A stretch of DNA of 50,901 bases, taken from Clostridia bacterium DTU068 (GTDB lineage Bacteria > Bacillota > DSM-12270 > Thermacetogeniales > Thermacetogeniaceae). Location of the stretch: the NCBI GenBank assembly GCA_001513545.1, contig LFTQ01000157.1, forward strand, positions 7,191-58,091. The letters are read 5' to 3'. This document shows, piece by piece, positions 30,776 to 50,901 of the stretch (positions within the stretch are counted from its first letter, which is position 1; each line of letters starts with the position of its first letter). Under the pieces are notes generated by a model, which saw nothing but the letters and a program-made list of their open reading frames with translations, was not told the DNA's origin and did not search any database. The translations under genes and the position numbers were made by a program.

Positions 30776-30794
30776 TGCTCTTCCTCCTTTCCCT

Positions 30795-30942
30795 GCCTCC
30801 GAGGTAAGCTGATGGGTTCGGTCGAAAGGATCGCCCTACATTTCCGTCTCCCCTTCGGAAATGATTCACCCCTGACGCGCAGGAATGCACGTCAATATGG
30901 TTCCCCCGTACCGTACATAGGACAAAAGTACGGATTCGGCAC
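30795..30942 (-). ncRNA. ydaO/yuaA c-di-AMP riboswitch
   Basis: The minus strand carries the conserved blocks in order: CCGAATCCGT, TACGGGGGAACCA, GGGGTGAATC, a hairpin with GAAGGGGAGAC, TAGGGCGATCCTTTCGACCGAACCC (split here as TAGGGCGATCC and CGACCGAACCC), then TCAGCTTACCTCGGAGGCA. It precedes a LysM cell-wall hydrolase, the commonest target of this class. The aptamer ends only a few bases before the ribosome site and no separate terminator hairpin is seen. Confidence 0.92.
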
Positions 30943-30963
30943 AATGTTATATATTTTTAGACA

Positions 30964-46916: not shown

Positions 46917-48248
46917 ATGCTCAACTGGTTGCTGACAAAAATGGCTGACCCGCTGATGGATGATGCCATGGAAAAGATGCTGACCACCAAATATGCGGAA
47001 AACCCTTTTGTTTTATTGACTGCTATGGAAAAGCTTACCCCAGCTGCTGTCATTGAAGCAGGTATGAGGGCTGAAACAGGAAAAGAACTGGAACGGCCTC
47101 TAGGCAGTCCTCTAAACCTTGACCCCTGGGAAAGGGTACTGCTTAATCCAAAGCAGCTGTTTCAGCTTCCAGCTGAAGACCTCAATAGTATTGACACTCA
47201 AACAGTAATCGGCCCCCGGGCGGGCAGGCCACTTAATCTGAAGATCCCTGTGATGATCACAGGGATGTCCTATGGGGCATCTGTCAGTTTACCATTTAAA
47301 ATTGCGCTGGCCAAAGGGGCTTCTCTGGTGGGAACAGCAACTAACACCGGTGAGAGCGCTGTCACAGCTGAGGAGCGCCAGGCGGCAAAGTATCTGATCG
47401 GTCAGTACAACCGGGGTGGGTGGTTGAATTCCAGTGAACAACTGGAACAGCTGGATGCCATCGAAGTGCAGTTCGGCCAGGCTGCCTGGGGTGGAGGGGT
47501 TACCGAAACCATTAAATCAGATGCTATCGGTCCGGAATTGAGGGAATTGTGGAAGCTGGAAAAGGGATATGATGCTGTTATCAATTCCCGTATGCCGGGC
47601 ACATCTTCAGCAGCAGACATCATCAAGCTGATCAATGGGCTGAAAGATGAGTATGATGTGCCTGTGGGTGTTAAAATTGCGGGCTCTGACTATATTGAAT
47701 ATGAGCTGGAAGTGATCTCCAAAACAGATGCAGATTTCATTACCATCGACGGGTTTGGAGGTGGCACTGCCGGATCACCTCCTACTTTGGAGGACAATTT
47801 AGGGCTTCCACTGCTTTACTGTTTGCCCCGTGCCATTCAATGGTTGGAGGATCATAACCTGCGGGACCGCTTTACTGTGATAGCCTCCGGTAGGATGAAA
47901 ACCCCAGGCCATTTTTTGAAAGCCCTGGCTCTCGGCGCAGATGCCGTTTATATTGGTTCTATTGCAATTATGGCGGCACTTCACACACAGGTAATAAAGG
48001 TTTCACCACAGACAACCCCACCTCAGCTTGTCCTCTATGATGGCACCCATAAAGATGAATTGGATGTGGAACAGGCAGCAAAGAGTCTCTCCAATTTTCT
48101 CAATTCATGTATGGCAGAGATGCGGCTGGCGGTGCAGGCAGTGGGCAAAAATTCCATTAAAGAACTGAACAAAGATGATCTGGTGAGTGTTGACCGGGAC
48201 CTTGCGGAGGCCTTAGGCATCAGGTATGCTGGGCACGGGCGCAAATAA
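46917..48248 (+). CDS. Glutamate-synthase-like FMN-binding protein
   Basis: 443 residues. The barrel domain of glutamate synthase large subunit is recognisable (PVMITGMSYGASVSLPFKIAL, GTATNTGESAV, IEVQFGQAAWGGG, VGVKIAGSDYIEYELEVI, DFITIDGFGGGTAGSPPT, RFTVIASGRMKTPGHFLKALALGADAVYIGSIA). The glutaminase domain and the usual C-x5-C-x4-C [3Fe-4S] motif are absent, so it is not an ordinary GltB. ATG 46917 after AAAGGAGG. Substrate unknown. Confidence 0.88.
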   Translation: MLNWLLTKMADPLMDDAMEKMLTTKYAENPFVLLTAMEKLTPAAVIEAGMRAETGKELERPLGSPLNLDPWERVLLNPKQLFQLPAEDLNSIDTQTVIGPRAGRPLNLKIPVMITGMSYGASVSLPFKIALAKGASLVGTATNTGESAVTAEERQAAKYLIGQYNRGGWLNSSEQLEQLDAIEVQFGQAAWGGGVTETIKSDAIGPELRELWKLEKGYDAVINSRMPGTSSAADIIKLINGLKDEYDVPVGVKIAGSDYIEYELEVISKTDADFITIDGFGGGTAGSPPTLEDNLGLPLLYCLPRAIQWLEDHNLRDRFTVIASGRMKTPGHFLKALALGADAVYIGSIAIMAALHTQVIKVSPQTTPPQLVLYDGTHKDELDVEQAAKSLSNFLNSCMAEMRLAVQAVGKNSIKELNKDDLVSVDRDLAEALGIRYAGHGRK

Positions 48249-48464: not shown

Positions 48465-49700
48465 TTGTCACATTTGGTCAAAGACATCGACAAGCAGTTG
48501 GAGATCATAAAAAGAGGCACAGCTGAGATCATTCCTGAAGAGGAACTGGTTGATAAGCTCAAGCGTTCCATTGAGGAGGACAGGCCTCTCAAAGTTAAAT
48601 TGGGTTTGGATCCAACTGCTCCTGATATCCATTTAGGACATACAGTTGTTTTACACAAAATGCGCCAACTGCAGGAATTGGGGCATGATATTATTTTGAT
48701 TATGGGGGATTTTACCGGGCGGATCGGGGATCCATCAGGGCGTTCTGAGACCCGCAGGCAGTTGACAGAGGAAGAAATAGAAAAAAATGTTGCAACATAT
48801 AGGGATCAGGTTGGTAAAATAATCGATATCAATAAAACCAGATTGGTTTACAACAGCACCTGGCTGGGAGCCCTTTCTTTCTCTGATGTGGTCACACTGG
48901 CTGCCAAATATACAGTTGCCAGGATGCTGGAGCGGGATGATTTTGAACGCCGCTATAAACAGGGCATACCGATCGGTATTCATGAATTCCTCTACCCACT
49001 GATGCAGGGCTATGATTCTGTGGTTGTAAAAGCAGATATCGAATTGGGAGGAACAGACCAGAAGTTTAACTTGATGGTAGGGCGTGATCTACAGCGTGAG
49101 TTCGGACAGGAACCACAAGTGGCAATTACAATGCCCATCCTTGAAGGACTTGACGGTGTTCAAAAGATGAGCAAAAGCCTGGGGAATTACATAGGTGTTT
49201 CCGAGCCTCCCAATGAGATTTACGGCAAGACCATGTCTATCACTGATGAATTGATTGTTAGGTATTTTGAATTGGTTACTCCTGTACCTAATGAGGAAAT
49301 CAGACAGATCCGGGATGACATGGCCAGTGGGAAACTCAACCCCAGGGATGCCAAAATGCGCTTAGCTAAAGAATTGGTGACTATGTTCCACGGTAGAGAA
49401 GCAGCCCTTAATGCGGAAAAAGAGTTTATTACTGTTTTTCAGAAAGGCGCACTGCCTGATGATATTCCAGATGTTTTTATTCCACAGGGCGAGCTGGGGG
49501 ATGATGGGACCATCTGGCTTCCAAAACTGCTGACTGCAGCAGGGCTTGCCAACAGCACATCATCTGGTAAGAGATCTATTATCCAGGGAGCGGTCAGGAT
49601 AGATGGAGAAAAGATAACTGATCCTGATCATCGTGTCCTTGTCACCAGCGGTATGATTGTACAGATCGGAAAAAGAAAATTTGCCCGTATAAAATTATAA
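48465..49700 (+). CDS. tyrS: Tyrosyl-tRNA synthetase
   Basis: 411 residues, class I, TyrZ-like. HLGH of the HIGH motif in DPTAPDIHLGHTVVLHKM, KMSKSLGNY near 233 and a C-terminal S4 RNA-binding domain. TTG 48465 follows GGGAGG by eight bases. Confidence 0.96.
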   Translation: MSHLVKDIDKQLEIIKRGTAEIIPEEELVDKLKRSIEEDRPLKVKLGLDPTAPDIHLGHTVVLHKMRQLQELGHDIILIMGDFTGRIGDPSGRSETRRQLTEEEIEKNVATYRDQVGKIIDINKTRLVYNSTWLGALSFSDVVTLAAKYTVARMLERDDFERRYKQGIPIGIHEFLYPLMQGYDSVVVKADIELGGTDQKFNLMVGRDLQREFGQEPQVAITMPILEGLDGVQKMSKSLGNYIGVSEPPNEIYGKTMSITDELIVRYFELVTPVPNEEIRQIRDDMASGKLNPRDAKMRLAKELVTMFHGREAALNAEKEFITVFQKGALPDDIPDVFIPQGELGDDGTIWLPKLLTAAGLANSTSSGKRSIIQGAVRIDGEKITDPDHRVLVTSGMIVQIGKRKFARIKL

Positions 49701-49742: not shown

Positions 49743-50438
49743 ATGGTATTGTTTTTCGAGGGGGTGGAAGCACTGTTTCGGCTACACCTTTTCTACTGCC
49801 GCCGTGTACCAAGAATCAAACTGGCACTGGTTGCCGGCGGAATAACTTTATTTTTTCTAATTTTGATGTTCATTATTATCGAACACAATTTAAAACCGAC
49901 TATCAGTCATATTGCTGAAGCAAGGGCACGGCAAATTGCGACTGAAGCTGTGAATAATGCTATAAAAGCCAAAATAGCCGATTCTGTTAACTATGATGAT
50001 CTGATCAGTGTCCAGAAGGACTCTCAAGGGCAGATTGTTTTGATGCAGCCCAATATTGTGCGCATCAACCAACTGGCTTCTGATACAACACTATCCATTA
50101 ACAGTGCATTAAAAGGCTTAGAGAAGGAGAAGTTTTATATCCCTGTAGGGCAGGTATTGGGAAGTCAACTGATTGCCAACTATGGTCCGCGGATTAAGGT
50201 TTCAATTTACCCCATTGGTACAGTGAAAACCACTGTTTTCGATAAGTTTGAAGAAGCGGGGATAAACCAAACACGCCACCGACTTTATCTATCTGTTGAT
50301 AGCCAGGTGCGGGTGGTTGTACCACTGATCACATCTAATGTTAGAGTAAAAACACAGGTTCCTGTGACCGATACCATAATTGTGGGTCAGGTCCCGAAAA
50401 CTTATGTCAGATTGGATGCTAAACCATTGGAACATTAA
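49743..50438 (+). CDS. yunB: Sporulation protein YunB
   Basis: Up to 231 residues. One membrane helix at about 27-49, then a YunB domain (LKPTISHIAEARARQIATEAVNNAIKAKI, VGQVLGSQLIANYGPRIKVSIYPIG, VRVVVPLITSNVRVKTQVPVTDTIIVGQVPKTYV). Function in mother-cell-stage sporulation is unknown. The start is uncertain: ATG 49743 has no ribosome site, whereas GAGGGGGTGG (49759-49768) points to a CTG at 49773. Confidence 0.88.
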   Translation: MVLFFEGVEALFRLHLFYCRRVPRIKLALVAGGITLFFLILMFIIIEHNLKPTISHIAEARARQIATEAVNNAIKAKIADSVNYDDLISVQKDSQGQIVLMQPNIVRINQLASDTTLSINSALKGLEKEKFYIPVGQVLGSQLIANYGPRIKVSIYPIGTVKTTVFDKFEEAGINQTRHRLYLSVDSQVRVVVPLITSNVRVKTQVPVTDTIIVGQVPKTYVRLDAKPLEH

Positions 50439-50505
50439 ACAGGGAAAAGTTTTGTTGGTGTATTTGTTTTGTATGAAAAGATAGGATGGTGGGATATTAT
50501 TAGTG

Positions 50506-50534
50506 TTGGCAAAGAACCTGAAAGGCAGTAAGCT
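50506..50534 (+). promoter_or_regulatory. Array promoter P0 (degenerate)
   Basis: TTGGCA, 17-base spacer, TAAGCT. The weakest unit; no spacer dyad. Confidence 0.5.
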
Positions 50535-50570
50535 GAGCAACACTGATGCGAGATGGTGACAGAAAAGTGC

Positions 50571-50599
50571 TTGACAAGCCCTCAGGTGGGGAGTAAGAT
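50571..50599 (+). promoter_or_regulatory. Array promoter P1
   Basis: TTGACA, 17-base spacer, TAAGAT; followed by the CTGTCA/TGACAG hairpin at about 50609-50626. Confidence 0.8.
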
Positions 50600-50635
50600 A
50601 AACAACGCTGTCAACGAGGTGACAGAAAAAGATCC

Positions 50636-50664
50636 TTGACAAGCCCTAACAGGGGTAGTAAGAT
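50636..50664 (+). promoter_or_regulatory. Array promoter P2
   Basis: TTGACA, 17-base spacer with CCCT...AGGGG, TAAGAT. Confidence 0.8.
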
Positions 50665-50703
50665 GGAGAACGCTGTCGCTGAAAAGGTGATAAAAAATGA
50701 GCC

Positions 50704-50732
50704 TTGACAATCCCCAAAGGGGAAAGTAAGAT
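50704..50732 (+). promoter_or_regulatory. Array promoter P3
   Basis: TTGACA, 17-base spacer with CCCC-AAA-GGGG, TAAGAT; followed by CTGACACC/GGTGGCAG. Confidence 0.8.
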
Positions 50733-50770
50733 AGACAGCGCTGACACCGAAGGGGTGGCAGAAAAAAGTC

Positions 50771-50800
50771 TTGACAAAACCCCAGAGCGGGTGATAGGAT
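50771..50800 (+). promoter_or_regulatory. Array promoter P4
   Basis: TTGACA, 18-base spacer with CCC...GGG, TAGGAT; followed by TGCCGC/GCGGCA. Confidence 0.75.
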
Positions 50801-50835
50801 AGACAACGCTGCCGCCGAAAAAGCGGCAAAAAGTC

Positions 50836-50864
50836 TTGAAAGCCCTAAATAAGGGTGGTAAGAT
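50836..50864 (+). promoter_or_regulatory. Array promoter P5
   Basis: TTGAAA, 17-base spacer with CCCT...AGGG, TAAGAT; followed by CTGTC-AACT-GACAG. Confidence 0.75.
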
Positions 50865-50901
50865 AGACGACCCTGTCAACTGACAGCAAGGAACTAGAAA
50901 A

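Follow-up and report, generated by a model that had tools for sequence, protein, structure and literature searches.

The Promoter Array at the Contig End

The window, namely the whole analyzed stretch of 50,901 nucleotides from Clostridia bacterium DTU068, a Syntrophaceticus-like organism, carries near its 3' end the genes tyrS and yunB, followed by a tandem array of promoters and hairpins. At its 3' end the window coincides with the end of contig C2, where the array is cut. The features are as follows, with the units P1 to P6 counted from 50506.

48465–49700 (+): tyrS, tyrosyl-tRNA synthetase (TIGR00234, E 1.6e-122)
49743–50438 (+): yunB, sporulation protein YunB, the gene 5' of the array (TIGR02832, E 1.8e-59)
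50469–50498 (+): P0, promoter-like TTGTAT-18-GATATT, 5' of the array, degenerate in the window
50506–50534 (+): P1, degenerate first unit, TTGGCA-17-TAAGCT, below the promoter-scan threshold
50571–50599 (+): P2 promoter, TTGACA-17-TAAGAT; spacer dyad CCC(6)GGG; A-tract 5' of the -35
50608–50625 (+): P2 start hairpin, CTGTCA/TGACAG
50636–50664 (+): P3 promoter, TTGACA-17-TAAGAT; spacer dyad CCCT/AGGG
50674–50692 (+): P3 start hairpin, TGTCGCT/GGTGATA, with G-U pairs
50704–50732 (+): P4 promoter, TTGACA-17-TAAGAT; spacer dyad TCCCC/GGGGA
50741–50761 (+): P4 start hairpin, CTGACACC/GGTGGCAG, with one A-G mismatch
50771–50800 (+): P5 promoter, TTGACA-18-TAGGAT, TG before the -10; spacer dyad ACCC/GGGT
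50810–50828 (+): P5 start hairpin, TGCCGC/GCGGCA
50836–50864 (+): P6 promoter, TTGAAA-17-TAAGAT; spacer dyad CCCT/AGGG
50873–50886 (+): P6 start hairpin, CTGTC/GACAG

Five near-consensus sigma-A promoters begin at 50571, 50636, 50704, 50771, and 50836, all within 331 bp. They are 65, 68, 67, and 65 bp apart, in agreement with the period of 65–68 bases given in an earlier sequence-only reading of this DNA. They match the consensus at 10, 10, 10, 10, and 9 of 12 bases, their spacers are 17–18 bp long, and a run of 4–6 A lies directly 5' of each -35. Besides these five, the promoter scan picks up a partial match at 50473, giving six promoter-like sites versus 0.5 ± 0.7 in shuffles. The sequence-only reading counted six units with near-consensus -35/-10 pairs. 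This holds for P2–P6, but P1 is decayed, and the units are not six equal ones. P1 keeps the register of the array, with 65 bp between its start and that of P2. At the position of P0, the relatives have TTGCAT-18-TATATT with TG before the -10, which is better kept than in the window, and a P0-type element with a GTGGTATATTA-type -10 is found again in the equivalent loci of the family, 11 of which were examined. The sequence-only reading had overlooked P0.

The 5' arm of each start hairpin opens about 8 bases past the -10, at or next to the expected transcription start. RNA reading through from the first strong start is predicted to fold at -93.1 kcal/mol (z = -5.96). No sense-strand terminator is found in the array of the window or in that of the same-genus genome G003, and the hairpin tails are A-rich; attenuator or terminator hairpins are rejected, as the sense strand has no U-tracts. 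On the minus strand, terminator-like structures with weak T tails are seen at 50608–50625, 50736–50749, and 50809–50829.

Elsewhere in the window, a c-di-AMP riboswitch lies at 30779–30951 (-) (RF00379, 73.3 bits). The protein encoded at 46917–48248 (+) weakly resembles the large subunit of glutamate synthase and IMP-dehydrogenase-like families, and no NCBIfam model scores above cut-off for it.

rRNA Operons of the Same Genome and of Relatives

The contig stops inside the array, 15 bases past the P6 start hairpin, and neither boxA nor 16S rRNA appears before that stop. Assemblies break at rRNA repeats, and arrays sitting at contig ends are a typical outcome. A second, near-identical copy of the array lies at the end of contig C23 of the same genome. 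The sequence-only reading had proposed a multi-promoter rRNA control region, and the relatives bear this out. In Syntrophaceticus schinkii Sp3, the order is tyrS, yunB, three such promoters, and 16S rRNA. In G003, a single contig carries four promoters that lead directly into 16S rRNA. Because the gene order is the same in the window and in S. schinkii, and 16S rRNA follows the homologous arrays, the array is an rRNA control region.

The same reading suggested looking for the unit before other rrn operons of the genome. Besides the array on C23, a third rRNA operon start, which is partial, is present at G000:C141 (L121). The Rfam 16S model gave no match in this genome, and the operon was found later by a 16S DNA search. 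The gene 5' of it resembles, by eye, a lysyl-tRNA synthetase gene. The operon has two ordinary promoters instead of an array; its start hairpin differs, and its boxA-like element is the one described below. A search of the 2.2-Mb genome for TTGACA-16/18-TARGATRGA, the promoter pattern of the window, gives five matches, all of them inside the two arrays. The complete single-contig relative G019 gave no 16S match, whether by the Rfam model or by DNA search, and was therefore left out as a control.

In more distant genomes of the same family (G004, G006–G011, and G013), one or two promoters replace the array before 16S rRNA. The single-promoter rRNA operons of the family also contain a start hairpin, which is followed by the boxA-like sequence GGTCYTTGAAAACTGAACAG before 16S rRNA. 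Across 12 family rRNA leaders this element is invariant, apart from a single change in one. The hairpin arms in the non-array operons are unrelated in sequence: GGAGTC/GACTTC, GGAGCC/GGCTCC, and GCTGCTTTTC/GAGAGGCAGC. In the last unit of the relatives' arrays, the hairpin is located directly 5' of the boxA-like sequence. Across the phylum, the first 40 nt from proximal rRNA promoters fold with z <= -2 in 25 of 56 cases (mean -1.79). The presence of the hairpin in non-array operons and the phylum-wide folding indicate that the start hairpin is a common leader element, present in many copies in the array. The leader RNA structure proposed for the window is thus found in rRNA leaders family-wide.

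Paired Changes in the Hairpins and Symmetry in the Spacers

For the covariation test, the 5' arm of each unit was paired with the downstream segment of its own unit or, by permutation, with those of other units. Over 40 units of the family, the own-partner pairing score is 431 versus 345.7 ± 16.4 in permutations, and none of 20,000 permutations reaches it. For the genus arrays, 10 of 20,000 permutations match the observed score. The five units of the window alone give a borderline result (1,004 of 20,000) and do not suffice for the claim; they include one mismatch and wobble pairs. The proposal that the arms change together accordingly stands on the family-wide comparison, in which the pairing is kept, and not on the window by itself. 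The start hairpin is real and is kept by paired changes.

The number of units differs between copies and between species, in line with unequal recombination. The array on C23 is longer than that on C2 by exactly one 68-bp unit, located by comparing L002 1501–1709 with 50760–50901 of the window and bounded by repeated AAGCCCTAA. Either a unit was lost naturally, or the assembly produced this difference at the contig end. These are draft metagenome assemblies with a possible short-read effect, and exact unit numbers near contig ends are uncertain.

Such variability would also fit units that are mostly neutral tandem duplications, where only the last promoter counts and the others are by-products of slippage. 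The decay of the first unit and several -35 changes (TTGAAA, TTAACA) agree with this explanation. However, five promoters keep 9–10 of 12 consensus bases, hairpin pairing is retained via paired changes between units, and multi-unit arrays persist in two genera. Neutral duplication is therefore rather unlikely, even though it survives better than the other alternatives.

The spacers contain a second symmetry. CCCY...RGGG or a close variant is found in the spacers of P2–P6, with just three pairs in P2, and the P1 spacer has CCT/AGG only. The dyad had been assigned to P1–P5; its existence is upheld, and its placement is corrected to P2–P6. Summed over the genus arrays, which have 17 unique spacers, the dyad scores 151 versus 112.4 ± 7.0 in shuffled spacers (0 of 2,000), although the units share ancestry and these shuffle counts overstate their independence. 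In the sister genus, the arrays have a weaker dyad in other letters, such as CACC/GGTG (55 versus 43.7 ± 4.2; 19 of 2,000). Among other rRNA promoters of the family there is no excess of dyads, with 1,347 of 2,000 shuffles equally good. The spacer dyad is real, yet nearly confined to the arrays of this genus.

A regulator binding this dyad, either a dimeric repressor or a MerR-like activator, could govern all units jointly. The excess over shuffled spacers is consistent with it, as are the centering of the dyad some 10 bp 5' of the -10 in the majority of the genus units, the paired change from CCCT/AGGG to CCCC/GGGG, and the weaker dyad of different sequence in the sister genus. On the other hand, shared ancestry inflates these statistics, other rRNA promoters in the family lack the dyad, and some units of G002 and G003 have lost it. 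MerR promoters have spacers of 19–20 bp, and the dyad here lies in spacers of 17–18 bp, which rejects a MerR-type promoter. A genome-wide dyad regulon is rejected as well. TTGACA with the CCC/GGG dyad has six occurrences in the arrays and just two in the rest of the genome, equal to the count for the reversed-pattern control. The dyad-binding regulator of the sequence-only reading is thus improbable. The dyad contributes to the folding of read-through RNA, and may be merely an inherited trait of the founding unit. That the hairpins terminate antisense transcription or insulate the units from one another is very improbable: three minus-strand hairpins are terminator-like versus 0.6 ± 0.8 expected, but their tails (CGTTGTCTAT) are poor U-tracts, the array of G003 has none, and the hairpin also follows single promoters, before boxA, where insulation of units is not needed.

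Proposed Working of the Array and Comparison with Known Systems

Very probably, the locus as a whole is a cut-off rRNA control region composed of amplified promoter-hairpin units with a boxB-like leader hairpin. In the favored account, the starting point was a single rRNA unit consisting of an A-tract, a sigma-A promoter, and a start hairpin, and unequal recombination at repeats multiplied it into a tandem array with at least five promoters. The hairpin would have been duplicated together with the promoter. RNA polymerase would be loaded independently at each promoter, and each start would yield an RNA whose first ~20 nt fold as a hairpin. The unit spacing is close to one polymerase footprint, which suggests packing of polymerases along the array. 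The array could act as an amplifier, giving more initiation on few rRNA operons.

Based on its location directly 5' of the boxA-like sequence in the last unit of relatives, the start hairpin is most likely a boxB-like part of the rRNA leader, with roles in antitermination, folding of the pre-rRNA leader, or protection of the 5' end. A more speculative reading is that each unit combines a complete promoter with an antitermination-like module. About 4–10 nt past the hairpin, read-through RNA contains YCTTGACA of the next unit, which resembles the boxA-like YCTTTGAAAA of the family. Such hairpin/boxA-like pairs might reload antitermination factors on polymerases that pass the downstream promoters. 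There is only a slim chance of this; if true, tightly packed promoters could fire without roadblocks or early termination.

Multi-promoter rRNA operons are already known, and the regularity of this array and its paired symmetries are unusual. Mycobacterium chelonae rrnA has five promoters before 16S rRNA (PMC10218544). Like the array, the hypervariable multiple promoter region (HMPR) of mycobacterial rrnA/rrnB has a variable number of tandem promoters before 16S rRNA, and tyrS is upstream of mycobacterial rrnB. The HMPR belongs to an unrelated lineage in a different phylum, whereas the units here are regular repeats of 65–68 bp. The array appears to work like the HMPR and is not classed as a member, the likeness being one of description rather than of compared sequences. 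The tandem P1/P2 rRNA promoters of Bacillus subtilis are likewise sigma-A promoters with A/T-rich upstream elements (PMC7824091), but there are two of them, in contrast to five or more here. In Escherichia coli rrn operons, boxB-boxA lies just after P2, and the role of boxB has been called puzzling (PMC10250234). The relatives here show the same order, a hairpin after the last promoter and then boxA. Unlike boxB of E. coli, the hairpin here opens at or beside the predicted start, and every unit has its own copy.

In 57 rRNA upstream regions of other Bacillota, promoters were counted within 650 bp. One region has none, 24 have one, 22 have two, eight have three, and two have four; none of the 57 reaches five. 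The multi-promoter regions in this survey show little similarity among their units. Among open-license papers, no account of Syntrophaceticus rRNA promoters or of repeated promoter-hairpin units was found. What is new in this array is its uniform promoter-hairpin unit, together with the density of these units and their gain and loss.

The array is a natural experiment on rRNA promoters, in which one promoter-hairpin unit is repeated within an operon, with paired changes between the copies. The start hairpin matches boxB by position, and its retention in every amplified unit makes the role of boxB testable. By multiplying promoters, a syntroph that has few rRNA operons may achieve more initiation.
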